A DNA stretch of 52,114 nucleotides from Candidatus Sulfopaludibacter sp. SbA3 (lineage in GTDB: Bacteria > Acidobacteriota > Terriglobia > 20CM-2-55-15), in contig CAMBFR010000016.1 of NCBI GenBank assembly GCA_945865815.1, positions 1 through 52,114 of the forward strand, given 5' to 3'. Shown in pieces: positions 3,624 to 13,684 of this stretch. Under the pieces are notes generated by a model. It saw only the letters and a program-made list of their open reading frames with translations, had not been told where the DNA came from and ran no database searches. Every line of letters begins with the position of its first letter. Position 1 is the first letter of the stretch. The translations under genes and the position numbers were made by a program.

Positions 3624-4991
3624 CTAGGCGCCTGAAAAATCAATGCCCAGCCTCTTTGCCTTGCTATAAAGCGTCCGGCGCTCGATACCCAGGATCTCAG
3701 CCGCCTTCTTCTTATTTCCACCGGTTTCCCGAAGGATCCGGATGATGTGCTCCCGTTCCATATCGTCCAGCGAGTTGCCTGCGCCGGCAGGCGATGAGGC
3801 TCCCGCCCCTTCATCGGCTTCGGATTCACCGAACTCCAGTTCCGACGCCTGTATCACGCCGGTATCGTTGAAGGTAATGGCACGCTCAAGCACGTTCCGG
3901 ATCTCCCGGACGTTCCCGGGCCAGTCATAGGCCTTCATCACTTCCAGAGCCTCGCCGGCCAATCTTACGTTCGTGCCAAACTTTTCATTAAAAATCTTCA
4001 GATAGTAGGCGGCCAGCAGCGGGATGTCGGCAACCCGTTCTCTCAAAGCAGGCAAGGATATGGTGAAGACATTCAGACGATGGAAAAGGTCCTCGCGAAA
4101 CTGGTTATTGCGGGTCATTTCGCGCAGGTCCCGATTAGTCGCGGCAACGACGCGAATATCCACCTGAACCGTTTCGTTCGAACCGACCCGCCGGATTTCA
4201 TGTTCCTGAATTACACGCAGAAGCTTTACCTGGAAGCCAAGCGACGTCTCCGAGATTTCATCGAGAAAGACTGTTCCGCCCGTCCCGTTTTCGAAGAGTC
4301 CCTTTCTCGTTCCGGTGGCGCCGGTAAAGGCTCCCTTCTCGTGGCCGAATAATTCGCTTTCCAGCAGCGTCTCGGGAAGAGCGCCGCAGTTGATGACAAC
4401 GAACGGCGCCGATGCGCGGCGGCTGTTCATATGCAGCGCCCGGGCCACGAGTTCCTTTCCGGCCCCGCTCTCGCCCAGGATCAGCACGGGTGATTCGATG
4501 CGGGCGATCTTAGCGAGCTTCTTGTACACCTCGATCATCTTCGGGCTGGTACCGACCATCTCGGTGTCCGGCAGGGTTTCGATCGAATCCGAATCCGCTC
4601 CGGAGACGCGCATTATCCGGAATTTTTCCTCGATCCGATGAATGACGCCGATCATGTCGTCCACGCCGAACGGCTTGCTGATGTAGTCGAACGCGCCGTT
4701 GTGGACGGCGTTCACGGCGGTCTCGAGTGAGCCATGAGCGGTCATGATGACGACTTCGGAGTCGGCATTGATTTCCTTCATGCTCTCGAGCAGGTGAAGG
4801 CCGGAGTCGTCTCCGAGGTAGATGTCACTGACAAGGATGTCGAACCGCTCTTCCTTCATGGCCTGCCGCGCCTGCTTGCCATTCACGGCGATCCGGTGTG
4901 GATACGATTCCATATCGAGAATCGAGTCCATCAATTTGCAGATGGATTTATCGTCGTCGACGACAAGAATCTTCGGTTTGGTACTACTCAT
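3624..4991 (-). CDS. NtrC-family sigma-54-dependent response regulator
   Basis: A 455-residue regulator with all three expected parts. A receiver domain covers residues 1-120 (acidic DDD at 12-14, phosphoacceptor Asp56, Lys106 in SKPF). An AAA+ domain follows, with Walker A GESGAGKE at 173-180, the sigma-54 contact loop GAFTGA at 220-225 and a GNVREIRN motif. A Fis-type helix-turn-helix is at about 410-450 (NKKKAAEILGIERRTLYSK). It should activate sigma-54 promoters when phosphorylated. Its partner is almost certainly the CHASE2 kinase directly upstream, 22 bases away on the same strand. I found no convincing -24/-12 site near the operon, so its targets are probably elsewhere. Confidence 0.95.
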   Translation of the reverse strand: MSSTKPKILVVDDDKSICKLMDSILDMESYPHRIAVNGKQARQAMKEERFDILVSDIYLGDDSGLHLLESMKEINADSEVVIMTAHGSLETAVNAVHNGAFDYISKPFGVDDMIGVIHRIEEKFRIMRVSGADSDSIETLPDTEMVGTSPKMIEVYKKLAKIARIESPVLILGESGAGKELVARALHMNSRRASAPFVVINCGALPETLLESELFGHEKGAFTGATGTRKGLFENGTGGTVFLDEISETSLGFQVKLLRVIQEHEIRRVGSNETVQVDIRVVAATNRDLREMTRNNQFREDLFHRLNVFTISLPALRERVADIPLLAAYYLKIFNEKFGTNVRLAGEALEVMKAYDWPGNVREIRNVLERAITFNDTGVIQASELEFGESEADEGAGASSPAGAGNSLDDMEREHIIRILRETGGNKKKAAEILGIERRTLYSKAKRLGIDFSGA

Positions 4992-5013: not shown

Positions 5014-7383
5014 TTAATTCGGAATCCAGAGTGTGAACGTGGATCCCTTACCTACCTCGCTCTCCACGAGAACATCGCCTCCGTGGCGTACGGCCACTTC
5101 CCTAACGAAGGCCAGGCCGAGGCCAAACCCACTCTGCGCTTGAGTTTCTTCGTTGCCGCGGCGGTAGAACTTCTCGAATACCTTTGCGCTCTCCTCGGCC
5201 GGAATGCCGCATCCCTGATCGGAGACGGTAAACCGGACGCGGTCATTCCCATTGGCGACCCCGATGCGGACGGTTGTTCCCGGCGCGCTGTACTTGATCG
5301 CATTGGTGACCAGGTTCGTAAGAGCCTGATAGAGGAGCAGCCGGTCCGCGCGAACTTCCGCGCCACCGACATCCTCCAGTTCGACGGAGATCTGCTTCCC
5401 GGCGGCAACCGGACCCACAACACTGACCAGGTCCCTCAGCACCGGCTCGACCTTGAACTCCGTGATCGAAACCTTCTGCCGGCCGGACTCGATATAGGCG
5501 ATATCCAGGAACGATTGAATCAATTGATTGAGCCGGATGCTTTCGTCAACGATTGTTCCCAGGAACTGCTTTCCCTTCTCCTGGACCAGATCATATTTCA
5601 GAAGCATGTCGCTGTACCCGCGTATGGACGTGAGCGGCGTACGCAGCTCATGCGATACCAGTGAGACCATATCGTTCTTCGCCTGGTTTAATTCGAACTG
5701 CGCCGTTGTGTCATGCAGGCTCAGGACGACTCCAATGCGATCGATGGGCGACATTGTCACGTTGTAGTAATTTCTGCCGTTCCGCCCGGGCACGAACTCC
5801 ATGGAAACCGCCTGGCCCCTGGTCAGGACGGAGCCGAACGCGGGAGCAAAAGCACGCCCGTCCAGCAACGACGCAAAATAGTCCGGAGCAAATCCCGGAT
5901 CCTGCGTGAAACCTGAAAGGCGTTTGGCTGCCGGATTCTGGTAGGCTACGCGGCCTGCCGGATCGCTGACGATAATCACGTCCTCGATGCTTGCCAGAAT
6001 CGCGGTATTGAACGACAGGAACCGCACCAGCTCTTCGTTGAAGAAGTCCACCGCGTTAAGTCGCCAGCGGTAGCCGGGATGAGGCGCTGCAAAGAGCGCC
6101 GCCCGGTTCTTCTTGCGTCCCGTGGTCTCGCGCTGATGCGTGTCGATTGCGGCAAGCCAGCCCTCTCGTTCGGGCGATTCGGTTACGCTTTGAAGAACCC
6201 GGTCGCGAGCATTCCATTCGGCGTGCACTGGCGCAACTTCAGCGCCCAGCTTCGATAGTCTCTCGATCTTTTCTTCAAGGTTGCGATTGACGTGCCGCCG
6301 GTTGGCGACTTCAAGGCCAGGCACGGCAACCACGATCGCGGTCCAGAATTGTTCGAAAGGCAACCAGACGTTGAAGTACTGCATCGCAATATAGGACATG
6401 ACAACAACAGCGGGCACGCACAACACCGCAACAGTGAAAAATCGCGGTCCTTCAAAACGCCGGTTCACCCACCAGAGGAAAAATATGCCCGCCGTAAGCA
6501 GCGTCAGGAGAATCGACTGCCGGATCTCGACGATTTCGCTGCCGTCGTACAGAGTTTCAATTGCGTTGGCGTGAATCTCGACGCCGCTCATCTTCTGACC
6601 CGTTCCGCCGAAAGGCGTGAACCACTGATCCTGCAGTCCCGCGGCAGTCGCCCCGATGAGCACGATCTTGTCTTTAAAGGTCCCCTCCGCGGCAACCCCT
6701 TCAAGCACATCGGCCGCAGGTATGTGTTCAAACGTCTTGCTGTCGCCGGCAAACCGGATTTTTACGGGCGTGCTTCGGAAAATCTGCGTCGAGCCGACGG
6801 ATTCCACGAAGTTACCGCGGATTTCCGCGTGCGCCACCTTGAGCGCCTGTATTGCGAAAGCCGGCTGGCCGGTTCCCTGCGCGGTCTTTACCGGCACCAC
6901 CTGCCGGCTGATGCCGTCCAGGTCCGGATCGGCATGGACGTGACCGAGCAGCGCGCTTCCCTGGAGAAATTTCTCGTTCGGCGGACGCCAGCGCGCGCGG
7001 CGCCCAACGCCATCCACCCTCGTCGCCAGGACAATCGCCTTCGAGCCGGAAATCGACGCGGCCAGCGCGGCGTCGGCTTCCTCGGTCGTTTCATCGTCCA
7101 GCAACAGGTCGATCGCGATTGCCCGCGGCGCGTCCATTTCGATTCGATCAATCAGTTTCGCGAGTTTGTCTCGTGACCACGGCCATGCTTCCACGCGGCC
7201 AAGACTGTCATCGTCGATCGCAACAATGACGGTTGGACTCTCCGGGGGAACCGGACCGGCCAGGCGCAGAGTAAAGTCATAGGCGATGAGATCGAGTTGT
7301 ATGAAATACGCGGTCCACCACAACAAAACGATCGTCATGGCGACGAGCAAACTGAGAACTGCGGCTTTAACGAAGGGCCTCAT
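5014..7383 (-). CDS. CHASE2-domain membrane sensor histidine kinase
   Basis: A 789-residue kinase. An N-terminal membrane anchor (about 9-29) is followed by an extracellular CHASE2 domain (about 30-290, with VIVAIDDDSL and PRAIAIDLLLDD). Three membrane helices lie at about 295-380. A PAS domain follows at about 460-550, then a HisKA helix with SHELRTP (His578) and a complete ATPase domain (NLVTNAIKYS, DQGCGIP, GFGLGLAF). CHASE2 kinases sense unknown extracellular cues. The gene heads the minus-strand unit with the NtrC regulator, a secreted protein and a FecR protein. A TATAAT box at 7394-7399 ends 10 bases before the ATG and overlaps the -10 of the divergent efflux operon. Confidence 0.94.
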   Translation of the reverse strand: MRPFVKAAVLSLLVAMTIVLLWWTAYFIQLDLIAYDFTLRLAGPVPPESPTVIVAIDDDSLGRVEAWPWSRDKLAKLIDRIEMDAPRAIAIDLLLDDETTEEADAALAASISGSKAIVLATRVDGVGRRARWRPPNEKFLQGSALLGHVHADPDLDGISRQVVPVKTAQGTGQPAFAIQALKVAHAEIRGNFVESVGSTQIFRSTPVKIRFAGDSKTFEHIPAADVLEGVAAEGTFKDKIVLIGATAAGLQDQWFTPFGGTGQKMSGVEIHANAIETLYDGSEIVEIRQSILLTLLTAGIFFLWWVNRRFEGPRFFTVAVLCVPAVVVMSYIAMQYFNVWLPFEQFWTAIVVAVPGLEVANRRHVNRNLEEKIERLSKLGAEVAPVHAEWNARDRVLQSVTESPEREGWLAAIDTHQRETTGRKKNRAALFAAPHPGYRWRLNAVDFFNEELVRFLSFNTAILASIEDVIIVSDPAGRVAYQNPAAKRLSGFTQDPGFAPDYFASLLDGRAFAPAFGSVLTRGQAVSMEFVPGRNGRNYYNVTMSPIDRIGVVLSLHDTTAQFELNQAKNDMVSLVSHELRTPLTSIRGYSDMLLKYDLVQEKGKQFLGTIVDESIRLNQLIQSFLDIAYIESGRQKVSITEFKVEPVLRDLVSVVGPVAAGKQISVELEDVGGAEVRADRLLLYQALTNLVTNAIKYSAPGTTVRIGVANGNDRVRFTVSDQGCGIPAEESAKVFEKFYRRGNEETQAQSGFGLGLAFVREVAVRHGGDVLVESEVGKGSTFTLWIPN

Positions 7384-7393
7384 GGTGGCGCGT

Positions 7394-7403
7394 ATTATAC
7401 AAT
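7394..7403. promoter_or_regulatory. Bidirectional promoter with overlapping -10 boxes
   Basis: Minus-strand TATAAT (7399-7394) and plus-strand TACAAT (7398-7403) overlap by two bases. They sit 10 and 9 bases before the two divergent start codons (7383 minus, 7413 plus). There is no room for an ordinary leader on either side and no good -35 box, so both transcripts probably begin at or within a few bases of the start codon. Confidence 0.55.
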
Positions 7404-7412
7404 GGGACGCTT

Positions 7413-8591
7413 ATGACGCGCCGTAGCCGACTGATTTTACTTACCGTTGTGGTTGTAGCCGCCGCCGGCGCGACAGCCGGTTATTTCCTTCAGACCGAGC
7501 CGGCCGGCAACGCGCTCCGGGCCTCCGGAACCATTGAAGCCACCGAAGTGGATGTCTCGTTCCAGATCCCGGGAAAGGTTGCCGAAGTCCTGGTCGACGA
7601 GGGCCAGCCGGTCTCAAAAGGTGAAATGCTCGCCCGAATGTCCTCCGGCGAACTGCAGGCGCGGCTCGCTCAAATCCAGGCTTCGCTGGATGCGGTACGG
7701 AGTCAGGCCAGGCAGCAGGAAGCCGGGCTCCGGCTGCGGCAAAACGTCGTGGAGAATCAGATTCAACAGGCGCGCGGCCAGGCCGACGCATCACGTTTTG
7801 TCGTCGATCGATTACGCGAAGGTAGTCGGCCGCAGGAGATCCGGGCTGCCGAAGCGGCGGTTACTCAAGCCGAAGCGGAAGCCGAACGGCGTCGAAACGA
7901 CCTCGACCGGATGACTTCCCTGCTCGAAAGAGGCGCCGCTTCCAGACAGGAATGGGACGCCGTGCGCTCAGGATCGGTTGCTGCCGACAGCGCCCTCACC
8001 GGGGCTGTCGAACGGCTGCGCCTTCTCCGTGACGGCCCGCGCAGAGAGGAAATAGCGGAAGCGGAAGCCCGGGTCCGGGCGGCTGAAGCCGGAGTGGGAA
8101 TCGCCGAAGCCGGCCGCTCGGAAATCGATATTCAACGGCAGGCGATCGAGGCTGCGCGCGCTCGCGAACGTGAATTGCTGGCTCAGCTCGAAGCCGCCGG
8201 GACCCAGCTCGGCTACACCGAGATCACTTCCCCGATCGCAGGCGTCGTGCTCCTCAAAAACGCGGAAAGCGGCGAAGTCGTCAATTCAGGCACTCCCGTC
8301 GTAACCGTGGCGGATATCGACGCGCTCTGGATGAACGTCTACATCCCTGAAACCCAGACCGGGCTGGTGAAGCTCGGACAGTCCGTAAAAGTGAATGTAG
8401 ACTCGTTTCCGGGTGACGTCTTCATGGGCACTGTCACTTTCATTTCTTCGCAATCCGAGTTCACGCCCAAGACAATCCAAACCGAGGAAGAACGCGTAAA
8501 ACTGGTCTACCGGGCGAAGGTTTCAATCGAAAATACGCAGCGAAGACTCAAGCCCGGCATGCCTGCCGACGCCGAGATTGTTATCAACTAA
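7413..8591 (+). CDS. HlyD/YbhG-type periplasmic adaptor subunit
   Basis: A 392-residue membrane-fusion protein. A single N-terminal anchor (residues 6-26) is followed by a first lipoyl half (VDVSFQIPGKVAEVLVDEGQ, about 47-66). A long alternating Glu/Ala/Arg-rich coiled coil covers about 80-270. The second lipoyl half (YTEITSPIAGVV) and the beta-barrel domain come last. It would bridge the inner-membrane ABC exporter formed by the downstream genes to an outer-membrane channel, as YbhG does in Escherichia coli. Its stop overlaps the next ATG by one base. Probably it starts the six-gene operon and is transcribed from the TACAAT at 7398-7403. Confidence 0.92.
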   Translation: MTRRSRLILLTVVVVAAAGATAGYFLQTEPAGNALRASGTIEATEVDVSFQIPGKVAEVLVDEGQPVSKGEMLARMSSGELQARLAQIQASLDAVRSQARQQEAGLRLRQNVVENQIQQARGQADASRFVVDRLREGSRPQEIRAAEAAVTQAEAEAERRRNDLDRMTSLLERGAASRQEWDAVRSGSVAADSALTGAVERLRLLRDGPRREEIAEAEARVRAAEAGVGIAEAGRSEIDIQRQAIEAARARERELLAQLEAAGTQLGYTEITSPIAGVVLLKNAESGEVVNSGTPVVTVADIDALWMNVYIPETQTGLVKLGQSVKVNVDSFPGDVFMGTVTFISSQSEFTPKTIQTEEERVKLVYRAKVSIENTQRRLKPGMPADAEIVIN

Positions 8592-9454
8592 TGATAACCG
8601 TCAGAAACCTCACCAAGACATACGGCAAGACCACGGCTGTCGATCATCTCAGTATGGAGATCGCGGAGGGCGAACTCTTCGGACTTGTCGGACCCGATGG
8701 CGCCGGAAAAACCACCGCGATCCGGCTCATGATCGGAATCCTGACCCCCAATTCCGGCGAAGTACACGTTGCCGGAACCACCGGCTACGTTTCACAGCGT
8801 TTCAGTCTCTATGGCGACCTGACGGTTCAGGAAAATCTCGAATTGTTTGCCGATCTTTACCACGTGAGCGAAACCGCACTAACCGAGCGCACCGATCGGC
8901 TGATGCAATTCAGCCGGCTCGATCCGTTCCGCAATCGGCTTGCACGCGACCTGTCCGGAGGCATGAAGCAGAAACTCGCGCTTTCCTGCGCCCTGATCCA
9001 TACCCCGAAGGTGCTCTTTCTGGACGAGCCGACAACCGGAGTCGATCCGTTGTCGCGACGCGATCTCTGGCTTCTTCTCTTTGAGCTCTGGCAGTCGGGA
9101 GTCACGATTGTTGTCTCAACGCCATACATGGACGAGGCCGAACGCTGCTCCCGCGTCGGATTTCTGAGCGCAGGCAAGCTGATCGCCTCCGGACGCCCGG
9201 ATGAACTGAGGTCGAAATTCGGCGGAGTGATTTTCGAAGTCGTCACCGAACACAAATTCAAGGTGCAGGAAGCCTTGAGGGGCCTGCCGTTTGTGCGCAG
9301 CGTGACAGTCTTTGGCGAGGGATTGCACGTTGTCGTGGATGCAGACGCGGCAGAAAGTGCGCCGGAGAAGCTGCGAAGCGCGGCTCCTGGAGTTCCCGCA
9401 GTGACCCGGCTGGAACCTTCCATGGAAGATGTGTTTTTTGAACTCGTGAAATGA
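8591..9454 (+). CDS. ABC exporter ATPase (YbhF N-half-like)
   Basis: A 287-residue nucleotide-binding subunit. Walker A is GPDGAGKT (34-41), the signature is LSGGMKQK and Walker B is VLFLDEPTTG, all intact. The switch-loop histidine is missing: the motif reads STPYMDEAE where STHYMDEAE is usual. It corresponds to the first half of the E. coli fused ATPase YbhF; here the two halves are separate genes. Together with the second ATPase and two permeases it should form one asymmetric heteromeric exporter of the drug/peptide type. Its start overlaps the adaptor stop by one base. Confidence 0.92.
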   Translation: MITVRNLTKTYGKTTAVDHLSMEIAEGELFGLVGPDGAGKTTAIRLMIGILTPNSGEVHVAGTTGYVSQRFSLYGDLTVQENLELFADLYHVSETALTERTDRLMQFSRLDPFRNRLARDLSGGMKQKLALSCALIHTPKVLFLDEPTTGVDPLSRRDLWLLLFELWQSGVTIVVSTPYMDEAERCSRVGFLSAGKLIASGRPDELRSKFGGVIFEVVTEHKFKVQEALRGLPFVRSVTVFGEGLHVVVDADAAESAPEKLRSAAPGVPAVTRLEPSMEDVFFELVK

Positions 9455-9482
9455 CTGTGCGAAAGCTACTGTTGCCCAGAGT

Positions 9483-9588
9483 CCCTCACCCGCCGCTTCG
9501 CGGCACCCTCTCCCGGAGGGAGAGGGACAAACTTGCAGATATGTCCTTCTCCCCCTGGGAGAAGGTGGCCCGAAGGGCCGGATGAGGG
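9483..9588. repeat. REP-like palindromic element inside the ABC operon
   Basis: A 106-base element bounded by CCCTCACCC and GGATGAGGG (imperfect terminal inverted repeats). It holds four successive short hairpins: 9492-9504, 9506-9526 (perfect 9-bp stem), 9545-9565 (perfect 9-bp stem) and 9567-9579. It lies between the two ATPase genes and does not interrupt either. This is the build of dispersed intergenic palindromes seen in many proteobacterial and environmental genomes. As RNA it could slow decay or attenuate transcription within the operon. Confidence 0.75.
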
Positions 9589-9597
9589 TTAAGGGCC

Positions 9598-10509
9598 ATG
9601 CCCAACTGGTCCGTCGAAGTTGAAAATCTGGCCCGCCGGTTTGGCGATTTCGTTGCCGTGGATAATATTTCCTTCCGCGTCCGCGAGGGCCAGATCTTCG
9701 GCTTCCTCGGTCCGAATGGCGCCGGCAAATCGACGACGATTCGCATGCTTGCCGGGATTCTCGAGCCCACTTCCGGCGCCGGCCGGGTGGCGGGCTTCGA
9801 CATCATTCATGAGCGTCGAAAGATCAAGCATGTGATTGGTTACATGTCGCAGAAGTTCTCGCTCTACGAAGACCTCACGGTTGGCGAGAATCTTGATTTC
9901 TTTGGCGGGATTTACGGCGCGAGTTCCTTTGACTGGGCGGTGGAGGTTTGCCGGCTCGAATCGGTTATCGATACACGCTGCTCGAGTCTTTCCGTCGGCC
10001 TGCGGCAGCGCGTCGCCCTGGCCTCCGCCGTCGTCCACCGGCCTCGAATCGTGTTCCTCGACGAGCCCACTGCAGGTGTGGATCCGGCGTCGCGCCGCTC
10101 TTTCTGGGAATTGATCTATGAACTGGCTCACTCCAACGTGACCGTATTCGTCTCCACGCACTATATGGACGAAGCCGAGCACTGCGACTGGCTCGCGCTG
10201 ATCGACCAGGGCAGGATCGTCGCTTCCGCTCCGCCCACTGAACTTCGGCGCCGGTTCTTCCACGCCCACCTGCTCGAACTCGGCTGCGACTCCATGTTCC
10301 AGTGGATCGACGAACTCGCGAGGCGGCCGGAGATCGAGGGAGCCGCGATGTACGGGAATAAGTTGCACCTGACAGTGAAGACCATAACCGAAGCCGAGCG
10401 CGCGGTCCGCGAGGTTGGCGCACACAAGGGATTGCAGGTGATTTCACTGCGGGAAATCACTCCGTCGCTCGAAGACATTTTTGTTTCCGTAATGACGCGC
10501 CAGCGGTAG
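9598..10509 (+). CDS. ABC exporter ATPase (YbhF C-half-like)
   Basis: A 303-residue nucleotide-binding subunit with Walker A GPNGAGKS (38-45), Walker B IVFLDEPTAG and an intact switch histidine (STHYMDEAE). The signature is degenerate: LSVGLRQR in place of LSGGxxQR. This is the mirror image of the first ATPase, which has a good signature but no switch histidine. The pair is therefore expected to form one working and one degenerate ATP site. The gene starts nine bases after the REP-like element. Likely partners are the HlyD adaptor and the two ABC-2 permeases. Confidence 0.92.
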   Translation: MPNWSVEVENLARRFGDFVAVDNISFRVREGQIFGFLGPNGAGKSTTIRMLAGILEPTSGAGRVAGFDIIHERRKIKHVIGYMSQKFSLYEDLTVGENLDFFGGIYGASSFDWAVEVCRLESVIDTRCSSLSVGLRQRVALASAVVHRPRIVFLDEPTAGVDPASRRSFWELIYELAHSNVTVFVSTHYMDEAEHCDWLALIDQGRIVASAPPTELRRRFFHAHLLELGCDSMFQWIDELARRPEIEGAAMYGNKLHLTVKTITEAERAVREVGAHKGLQVISLREITPSLEDIFVSVMTRQR

Positions 10510-10551: not shown

Positions 10552-10956
10552 ATGTCTCTTTCGGAATCCTGCCTGGCCGTGGCGGTCATTTCTACTGTGA
10601 TGACGATCGCTGTGCCTTCTTTAACTCGAAGCCGCGAAGACTACCTGCTTGCCGCAACCGCAAGACAGGTCGCTTCGCATTTGCATTCGACGCGAATAAA
10701 AGCGGTCACCCGTAATCGGGATTGCCGGCTGAACGTTACGTCTGCCGCGACCTATGTCATCGAATGCGAGGATCCCACCTGGTTGCCGGTGGATTGGATC
10801 GTCATGCCCAGGGGCCTGTCCATCAGCGCGAACGCGCGGCCGGAATTTCACCGGCGTGGAAACGTGTCACCGATGGCAACGATTACGATACGAAACGAGA
10901 ACGGACGGGAGAAGCGGCTCATAGTCAATATTACGGGCCGCGTGAGGATACAGTAG
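10552..10956 (+). CDS. GspH/FimT-like pseudopilin, no recognisable leader
   Basis: A 134-residue protein whose N-terminus resembles a type IV pilin/pseudopilin helix: MSLSESCLAVAVISTVMTIA, with Glu at the +5 position, then VPSL. The rest resembles the GspH/FimT minor-pilin fold. The usual short basic leader ending in Gly before the helix is absent. In frame upstream the residues are QKR and then the previous gene's stop lies 45 bases away with no start codon. It is therefore either a leaderless relative, a decayed pilin, or a protein using another start. Its stop abuts the next ATG directly (10956/10957), so it is embedded in the exporter operon. Confidence 0.62.
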   Translation: MSLSESCLAVAVISTVMTIAVPSLTRSREDYLLAATARQVASHLHSTRIKAVTRNRDCRLNVTSAATYVIECEDPTWLPVDWIVMPRGLSISANARPEFHRRGNVSPMATITIRNENGREKRLIVNITGRVRIQ

Positions 10957-12093
10957 ATGCGGTCACCCCTGACGGCGATTGCCCGGAAGGAATTCATCCA
11001 GATTCGCCGCGACAAGTCGACGATCTACATGGTGTTCATCTTTCCGTTGATGATGCTGATCCTCTACGGCTACGGCATCCGCTATGACGTAAAACTCGTT
11101 CCGATCACCGTCTTCGATCAGGACGCGAGCTTCGAAAGCCGCCAATACCTGGAACGCTTCGGAGAATCGCCGTACTTCAGCATCATCCGGTACGTTCCCA
11201 ATTACCGCGAACTCGAAAACGATATCAACCGCGGCGAAGCGCGTCTCGGCGTCGTTATCCCGCCCGACTTCGGCGAGCGCCTTTCTTCAAACCGGGAAGC
11301 AACGGTGCAGGTGATCGTCGACGGCGCCGACAGCAACACCGCGACCATTGCCCTTGGCTATTTCTCAGCCATCACCCGCGAATATTCGTCTGCCGTCATG
11401 ATGAACCAGATGGAGGCCATGATCCGGCGCACGAACCTGTCGATTCCACCGATGGAAATCGAACCCCGCATCTGGTTCAACGAAGACCTGCAGAGCGTCG
11501 AATTTATCGTTCCCGGAATCATCGCGATCATCATGATGATCATCGGCACGCTTTTGACAGCAGTCACGATTGTGAAAGAAAAGGAAGACGGCACGATCGA
11601 GCAGATCGTTTCCTCGCCGATTAAACGGCACCAGCTGATGCTGGGGAAGGTTCTGCCGTACGCAGTGCTCGCCTACCTGGATTTCCTTCTGGTGGTGCTG
11701 GCCAGCTATGTGTTTTTCGGGGTCGAGATCCGGGGCAGCGTGCTGCTGCTCTTCATTGTGGCGTTCTTCTACCTGCTGGGCGTGCTCGGTATCGGAATTC
11801 TGGTTTCCACGATCACGGAGACGCAGATCTCCGCCATGCTGATTGCTATCCTCGTTTCGCTCCTGCCTTCGATTCTGTTGTCCGGCTTTATTTTTCCCAT
11901 CCGGCAGATGCCCGAAGCCCTGCAGATCCTCACGACCGTGATCCCCGCTCGATACTTCATCGAGATACTTCGCGACATCTATCTGAAGGGCCTCGGCCTG
12001 GAGGCCATTTGGCGGGAGATCCTCTACATCATGCTGTTCGGCTTCGTCACCCTGGTGCTGGCGGCTCAGCGCTTCCAGAAGAGGCTGGATTAA
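10957..12093 (+). CDS. ABC-2 type permease (YbhS/YbhR-like)
   Basis: A 378-residue membrane subunit. One N-terminal helix (about 22-40) is followed by a large extracytoplasmic domain (about 45-180), then five helices toward the C-terminus. The conserved VKEKEDGTIEQIVSSPI motif lies between helices 2 and 3. It is paired with the next gene, to which it is clearly related (shared DGADSNTATIALGY-like segment and a similar start). The two form the transmembrane dimer of the exporter powered by the two upstream ATPases. Confidence 0.93.
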   Translation: MRSPLTAIARKEFIQIRRDKSTIYMVFIFPLMMLILYGYGIRYDVKLVPITVFDQDASFESRQYLERFGESPYFSIIRYVPNYRELENDINRGEARLGVVIPPDFGERLSSNREATVQVIVDGADSNTATIALGYFSAITREYSSAVMMNQMEAMIRRTNLSIPPMEIEPRIWFNEDLQSVEFIVPGIIAIIMMIIGTLLTAVTIVKEKEDGTIEQIVSSPIKRHQLMLGKVLPYAVLAYLDFLLVVLASYVFFGVEIRGSVLLLFIVAFFYLLGVLGIGILVSTITETQISAMLIAILVSLLPSILLSGFIFPIRQMPEALQILTTVIPARYFIEILRDIYLKGLGLEAIWREILYIMLFGFVTLVLAAQRFQKRLD

Positions 12094-12097
12094 TTAA

Positions 12098-13225
12098 ATG
12101 CTGAAGCGCGTTTTCCGGATCATCCGCAAGGAGCTCATCCAGATCGGCCGCGACGCCGGCCTGGTGAAAATGATCGTCATCGCGCCCTTGCTGCAGCTCC
12201 TCATTTATGGATACGTGGTGGCGACCGAGATCCGTGAGCTTCCGATTGTGGTTCTCGACCGTTCGCATTCCGCCGAGAGCCGCCGTTTGGTGGATCGCTT
12301 CCTGGCAAGCGGGTATTTCGTGCTGGAAGGCCATGCGGAGACTCTCGATGAGGTCACAGCGCACCTCGACGACAGCCGTTCGTTGATGGGGATCGTTATT
12401 CCCGAAGACTACGCCAGCAACATCCGGCGCGGCGTCCGCGCGAAGGTGCAGATTCTCGTGGATGGCACGAATTCGAACACCGCGACCATCGCTCTTGGCT
12501 ACACGGCCGGAATCGTAGCGGTCGAGAACAACGACCTGATCGAGTCGAACTTCGAAAGGCTTGGAATACGCATGATCGAGGCCGGAATCGATCAGCAGGA
12601 ACGCGTATGGTTCAACCCTTCGCTGCGCGCCATCAATTACATGGTGCCCGGAATCATATGTGTGCTTCTGATGGAACTCCTGATGCCGCTCACCGCTTTC
12701 AGCCTGGTCAAGGAGCGGGAGCGAGGAACCATCGAGCAACTCATGGTTACGCCCATTCATGCCGGAGAAATGCTCGCGGGAAAAACGATCCCATATGCGC
12801 TGCTGGGTGTCGTGAATATCGTAATAATTCTTGCGGCGGGAACGTTCTGGTTCAAAGTGCCGATGGCTGGAAGCGTTGGAGCCCTGCTGATCTACGCACT
12901 CCTGTTTATAGTGGTGACGCTGGGGATGGGTATCCTCGTTGCCACCATGGTAACCACCCAGCAACAGGCCGCCCTCGCCGCCCAGTTCATGCTTATCCCG
13001 AACATACTGCTTTCGGGTTTCATGTTCCCTATCGAATCCATGCCGGATCTCATGCAAATCTTCACGACAATTTTGCCCATGCGCTATTTTCTCGTCATCG
13101 TCCGGGGCATTATGATGAAGGGCCTTGGAGTTGCAGAATTGTGGGATCAGGGATTGCCTCTGGTTATTATCGGCGTGATTGTCTTTTCAATCAGTTGGTA
13201 CCGATTTCGGAAAGTCTTTGGCTAG
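12098..13225 (+). CDS. ABC-2 type permease (YbhR/YbhS-like), second subunit
   Basis: A 375-residue paralogue of the preceding gene, four bases downstream. It has the same arrangement: first helix about 22-40, large outer domain carrying VDGTNSNTATIALGY, then five helices with LVKERERGTIEQLMVTPI. It completes the heterodimeric transmembrane channel. It ends the operon, since a separate promoter follows for the next gene. The substrate is not deducible; relatives export cationic drugs or lipids. Confidence 0.93.
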   Translation: MLKRVFRIIRKELIQIGRDAGLVKMIVIAPLLQLLIYGYVVATEIRELPIVVLDRSHSAESRRLVDRFLASGYFVLEGHAETLDEVTAHLDDSRSLMGIVIPEDYASNIRRGVRAKVQILVDGTNSNTATIALGYTAGIVAVENNDLIESNFERLGIRMIEAGIDQQERVWFNPSLRAINYMVPGIICVLLMELLMPLTAFSLVKERERGTIEQLMVTPIHAGEMLAGKTIPYALLGVVNIVIILAAGTFWFKVPMAGSVGALLIYALLFIVVTLGMGILVATMVTTQQQAALAAQFMLIPNILLSGFMFPIESMPDLMQIFTTILPMRYFLVIVRGIMMKGLGVAELWDQGLPLVIIGVIVFSISWYRFRKVFG

Positions 13226-13270: not shown

Positions 13271-13684
13271 ATGACAGACCCTGAACACGTAGTGGAGGCC
13301 AACCTCAAGTTCTACTTCGCTCTGGAGAGCCTCGACGTGGACTTAATGGATGAGGTCTGGGCGACGGATGCCAGCGCCATATGCGTTCACCCGGGCAAGG
13401 AAAGGCTGGCCGGATGGGAAAACATCCGCGCGAGTTGGGAACGGATTTTCAAGAACATAACGTCGCTGCGAATTGATGTGACCGACGTGTCCGTCGAAGT
13501 GCAGGGAAATGTGTCGTGGGTTACGTGCCTTGAAAACATCCATCAGGAAGTCGGCGACCAGATACAGCGCTCGCAGGCATACGCCACCAACATCTTTGTT
13601 TTCGAAGAAGACCGCTGGCTGCTGGTTCTTCACCACGCTTCCATGCTCGGCGAGGAAGACGGAAAAGACGCTTATTCCGCGTAA
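13271..13684 (+). CDS. SnoaL/NTF2-like domain protein
   Basis: A 137-residue cytoplasmic protein of the NTF2-like superfamily (SnoaL-like type). It shows an N-terminal helix pair (VVEANLKFYFALESLDVDLM), the VHPGKERLAGWENIRASWERIF segment and alternating strands ending in LLVLHHAS. Such proteins act as small-molecule isomerases, hydrolases or binding modules, and the substrate cannot be read from sequence. It has its own promoter and overlaps the convergent membrane-protein gene by 13 bases. Confidence 0.85.
   Translation: MTDPEHVVEANLKFYFALESLDVDLMDEVWATDASAICVHPGKERLAGWENIRASWERIFKNITSLRIDVTDVSVEVQGNVSWVTCLENIHQEVGDQIQRSQAYATNIFVFEEDRWLLVLHHASMLGEEDGKDAYSA

Follow-up and report, generated by a model that had tools for sequence, protein, structure and literature searches.

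A 29-base gap between a CHASE2 kinase operon and an HlyD-ABC exporter operon as a candidate bidirectional promoter with overlapping -10 boxes

The question raised by this locus is how two operons diverging from a gap of only 29 bases could both be transcribed. The locus lies in a window of 52,114 nucleotides (the whole stretch of DNA that was analysed), taken from the MAG of an uncultured Acidobacteriota. The gap length given in an earlier note on this DNA was exact by its coordinates (Table 1), with the kinase start codon read as CAT 7381-7383 on the minus strand and that of hlyD as ATG 7413-7415 on the plus strand. Alternative start codons for the kinase or hlyD were rejected, since both annotated starts were backed by orthologue alignments and the first Met of the kinase was conserved in six orthologues.

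On the minus strand, the sensor kinase and an NtrC-type response regulator formed one operon with a gap of 22 nt, a synteny that was conserved across the family. The named relatives of the kinase were MAGs of uncultured Acidobacteriota, among them 'gp5' isolates and one that bears the label Candidatus Sulfopaludibacter. The literature searched contained no study of CHASE2 kinases from Acidobacteria. On the plus strand, the operon was compared, as an operon, with the YbhG-YbhF-YbhS-YbhR exporters, which we take to be the closest in kind. An HlyD adaptor, two ATPase units and two ABC-2 permeases in a single operon were common to both, while the present operon differed in that its ATPases were encoded by two separate genes, its NCBIfam equivalog scores fell short of the cut-off (the best model for the adaptor being PRK03598), and its interior held a GspH-like ORF as well as a dispersed repeat. 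This ORF, GspH/FimT-like and pseudopilin in type (PF12019), was located at 10552-10956 between ATPase 2 and permease 1, which were directly adjacent without it in the family genome G004. The repeat, of about 110 bases, was located at 9455-9597 between the ATPase genes and had dozens of genomic copies or fragments, up to 94% identical.

Table 1. Features of the gap and of the two operons that diverge from it (positions in the window).
Feature	Position	Strand	Remarks
Divergent intergenic region with candidate bidirectional promoter	7384-7412		29 bases; same length in G001
Kinase -10 box TATAAT (ATTATA on plus)	7394-7399	minus	predicted start ~7386-7387, leader ~3-4 nt
Exporter operon -10 box TACAAT	7398-7403	plus	predicted start ~7409-7410, leader ~3-4 nt
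Alternative -10 box TATTAT	7393-7398	plus	with the minus TATAAT, canonical 18-bp spacing
CHASE2-PAS-HisKA-HATPase sensor histidine kinase	5014-7383	minus	Pfam PF05226, PF08448 (PAS_4), PF00512, PF02518 (HATPase_c)
NtrC-type response regulator	3624-4991	minus	Pfam PF00072, PF00158, PF02954
HlyD/YbhG-like periplasmic adaptor, exporter operon gene 1	7413-8591	plus	PF16576, PF13437
ABC exporter ATPase 1	8591-9454	plus	PF00005, PF13732
ABC exporter ATPase 2	9598-10509	plus	PF00005, PF13732
ABC-2 permease 1	10957-12093	plus	PF12698
ABC-2 permease 2	12098-13225	plus	PF12698

Within the gap, the two-base overlap that had been described for TATAAT (minus) and TACAAT (plus) was found exactly, the common bases being 7398-7399. 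TATAAT ends 10 nt before the kinase start and TACAAT 9 nt before that of hlyD, and on both sides the first T of the box lies 15-16 nt before the start codon. With transcription start sites placed by the usual spacing of 7 nt after the -10 box, leaders of about 3 nt are predicted, and the mRNAs would thus be near-leaderless rather than leaderless. The two genes described as leaderless are better read as near-leaderless on both sides, a reading supported by the conservation of the boxes and by the genome-wide class of such boxes described below. A weak Shine-Dalgarno-like motif, GGGA, precedes hlyD.

Other promoter elements were missing on either strand. The best match to a -35 element was 2/6, no better than at random positions, the TGn extension was absent on both strands of the gap, and the bases at -18 of the canonical starts were G, G and C instead of T. 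Since -35, TGn and -18 T were all lacking, each side is probably weak unless assisted, and the C or G found at the canonical +1 positions likewise suggests that transcription in at least one direction may be weak or dependent on an activator. A T at -18 is a common supporting feature of bidirectional promoters and no requirement. No activator site was found at the gap. A promoter reading based on the -35 element was dropped, as a consensus scan gave no -10/-35 promoter in 8 kb, and sigma-54 control through the neighbouring NtrC-type regulator was rejected, as no site occurred near the gap and the matches in the window were no more than expected by chance.

The 29-base gap is probably a compact bidirectional promoter of the sigma-70 type serving the kinase-regulator and HlyD-ABC operons with near-leaderless mRNAs. 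Housekeeping RNA polymerase would read the minus TATAAT to transcribe the kinase-regulator operon, and recognition of the plus TACAAT, or of the overlapping TATTAT, would lead to transcription of the exporter operon. The mRNAs would begin some 3-4 nt before the ATG (8 nt for TATTAT), and their translation would depend little, or not at all, on a Shine-Dalgarno sequence; at any time the polymerase could be seated one way only.

Such an arrangement has counterparts in other bacteria. Warman et al. 2021 reportedly defined bidirectional promoters with shared -10 elements. In such promoters, boxes on opposite strands overlap and starts are 7-25 bp apart; in the gap, the boxes overlap and the predicted starts are 23 bp apart with TACAAT (7387, 7410) or 18 bp apart with TATTAT (7387, 7405). 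Common distances between the divergent starts of bidirectional promoters are 18, 10 and 23 bp (PMC12825309; PMC10268837). The gap thus resembles the known cases in its overlapping divergent -10 boxes, in falling into the 23-bp class with an additional 18-bp arrangement and in the mRNA predicted on both sides, while it differs in that the starts, here predicted ones, are within a few bases of the start codons and in that neither strand has a T at -18. A further likeness was found to acrR/acrA of E. coli, where one bidirectional promoter likewise lies between an efflux operon and a gene of regulator type; in contrast, the exporter is here paired with a membrane histidine kinase instead of a repressor of its own, and the search for an operator gave none.

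The plausibility of near-leaderless transcripts in this organism was assessed in 852 kb of its genome, sampled as 40 stretches in which a simple gene caller found 606 genes. A -10-like hexamer 6-10 nt before the start was present in 35 of these genes, whereas positions farther away gave an expectation of 6.9, an enrichment which indicates that a minority TA-led class exists here and makes near-leaderless transcripts plausible. Shine-Dalgarno-like tetramers were commoner than these near-start boxes (157 of the 606 genes). Furthermore, -10-like boxes just before start codons are a published signature of leaderless genes in many bacteria (PMC3160421). As in those TA-led genes, a -10-like TANNNT precedes the start codon here by a short, constant distance and marks a minority class of the genome, although its first T is 15-16 nt before the start instead of the typical ~12, leaders of 3-4 nt are predicted and both directions are served from one site. 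Among 81 divergent pairs in the 852 kb, the test for boxes on both sides was limited to the 14 with a gap of 70 nt or less, and only in the kinase/hlyD pair was each start closely preceded by a -10-like box.

The sequence of the gap was then compared across the family. Among the 10 other family genomes, divergent kinase and hlyD genes with a 29-nt gap were found only in the congener G001. In this one congener the block had been kept, as the check on close relatives proposed with the original claim had called for: GTATTATACAATGGGACGCTTATGA was identical between the two, and the 50 columns from 7392 held a single difference, a lower number than in any other stretch of 50 columns within the ~3 kb compared (83% identity overall). 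Longer exact runs occurred elsewhere in coding sequence, so the identity with G001 is moderate evidence, from two genomes. Regarding rarity, the 11-mer TATTATACAAT had its sole match in the window at this site with up to one mismatch allowed (0.13 expected), and it occurred exactly once in the 4.34-Mb genome of the window. A search of 11 family genomes, including that of the window, gave six sites, namely five kinase promoters and the hlyD promoter of G004; the relatives carrying it were four, at kinase/hlyD promoters only, and the same 11-mer read backwards as a control gave no matches in these genomes.

Beyond the congeners, each box was found to be conserved with its own gene, which supports the proposed bidirectional promoter and its overlapping -10 boxes. 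Kinase orthologues from each of the family's four genera had kept TATAAT just upstream of the start, in most of them 7-10 nt away and without an adjoining exporter, although the neighbouring genes on that side varied. Some g4 genomes (G004, G008) had the kinase start codon about 40 nt farther away, and a short leader is thus not universal. TACAAT was present 8-9 nt before the hlyD ATG in g1, g3 and g4 (G001, G003 and G004, respectively), and no clear Shine-Dalgarno sequence was seen at the short-gap orthologues of these three. The overlap of the boxes with the kinase as partner was conserved only in the two congeners (the window and G001). In G003, kinase and hlyD were also divergent but 450 nt apart with separate boxes, the kinase with its own TATAAT and hlyD reading TTGCTACAATCGCGGTTTATG; in G004, hlyD faced an unrelated secreted-protein gene across a gap of 36 nt, again with TATTATACAAT.

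These same relatives bear on whether the block could be the kinase promoter only, TACAAT being part of its upstream -10 region and hlyD being transcribed from elsewhere, for instance from an antisense start inside the kinase gene, or by weak reverse leakage. The kinase promoter of three g4 genomes (G004, G008 and G009) read ATTGTATAATA, and ATTGTATAAT precedes the kinase there with no hlyD adjoining. The reversed TACAAT by itself therefore does not prove that a plus promoter exists, and its retention in the window pair could be partly due to the kinase promoter. The plus strand without -35, TGn or -18 T also fits such a reading. However, hlyD of G003 had its own TGC-TACAAT 8 nt before the ATG with the kinase start 450 nt off, which is the cleaner evidence for a plus promoter, and hlyD of G004 carried the block without the kinase. 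A promoter for the kinase only is therefore considered unlikely.

Some further observations were made in these relatives. The 450-nt space between hlyD and kinase in G003 (L033 2620-2970) was filled by palindromic dispersed repeats. In g4, a conserved GCAATTATATTGC-like inverted repeat, absent from the window and possibly a regulator site, was found shortly upstream of the kinase TATAAT (L060, L058, L059, L062 and L063). The gene facing the kinase in g4, at a greater distance, was SnoaL-like (L058, L060-L063), and its counterpart in the window is found beyond the exporter operon (13271-13684), which indicates that this operon was gained or lost here as a block; as to which arrangement came first, the kinase and regulator trees did not separate the order of the three genera. 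Moreover, a four-codon ORF, ATGGGACGCTTATGA (7402-7416, overlapping the hlyD start), was rejected as a coupling peptide, since it starts inside the -10 box and was not kept in G003 or G004.

The self-complementary GTAT-T-ATAC in the gap could also mean that the AT-rich palindrome GTATTATAC serves a repressor or an activator as operator and is not a -10 pair, and the nearest exporters of sister families indeed have a TetR-type operator at the corresponding place. In these exporters, whose hlyD was ~40-46% identical, a TetR-like gene preceded in many cases, as judged from sequence without a profile scan, and a GTGAAY-N4-RTTCAC-like operator was found before tetR and/or hlyD (L160-L163, L166, L168 and L171). 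However, the sister site reads GTGAAC-N4-GTTCAC, and the window contained no such GTGAA-TTCAC operator, so TetR control as in the sister families was discarded. In G003, furthermore, the halves of the palindrome were split over two promoters, each still -10-like, and the symmetry follows from two -10 boxes facing each other. The operator is thus regarded as very improbable. As a more speculative history, which we hold to be unlikely, the exporter might have lost TetR control and adopted a regulator-free near-leaderless bidirectional promoter, its partners being swapped across a conserved -10 pair, with the kinase in one genus and the unrelated secreted-protein gene in another.

If the gap acts as a bidirectional promoter, sensor and exporter might be reciprocally regulated by competition, activation one way shutting off the other. 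The geometry would force exclusive binding, and at E. coli promoters, acrA/acrR of an efflux locus among them, an activator acting in one direction can cause repression in the opposite one (PMC12825309). On the other hand, none of the five bidirectional promoters tested in E. coli had enough basal transcription for competition, which occurred only on strong activation (PMC12825309). Here, the adjacency with a common box is confined to one genus, the G003 boxes being separate at 450 nt, and the g4 kinase and the G004 hlyD each do without the other. With such low basal activity in E. coli and neither an activator nor a sigma-54 site identified at the gap, coupling by competition is possible but unsupported; a switch of this kind appears quite improbable, and coupling of sensor and exporter by polymerase competition at basal level would be unlikely. 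As both promoters look weak, each operon is probably expressed at a low basal level without influence on the other.

Bidirectional promoters are already a well-known class in bacteria, of which the kinase/hlyD gap would be an additional example, and no case of such a kind in Acidobacteriota was found in the literature searched. With 29 bases serving two operons, it would be a very compact natural case. Moreover, the relatives in which the same boxes are separated (G003) or re-paired with another gene (G004) constitute a natural series, with which it could be asked whether overlapping -10 boxes are regulatory or a mere remnant of packing two near-leaderless genes together.
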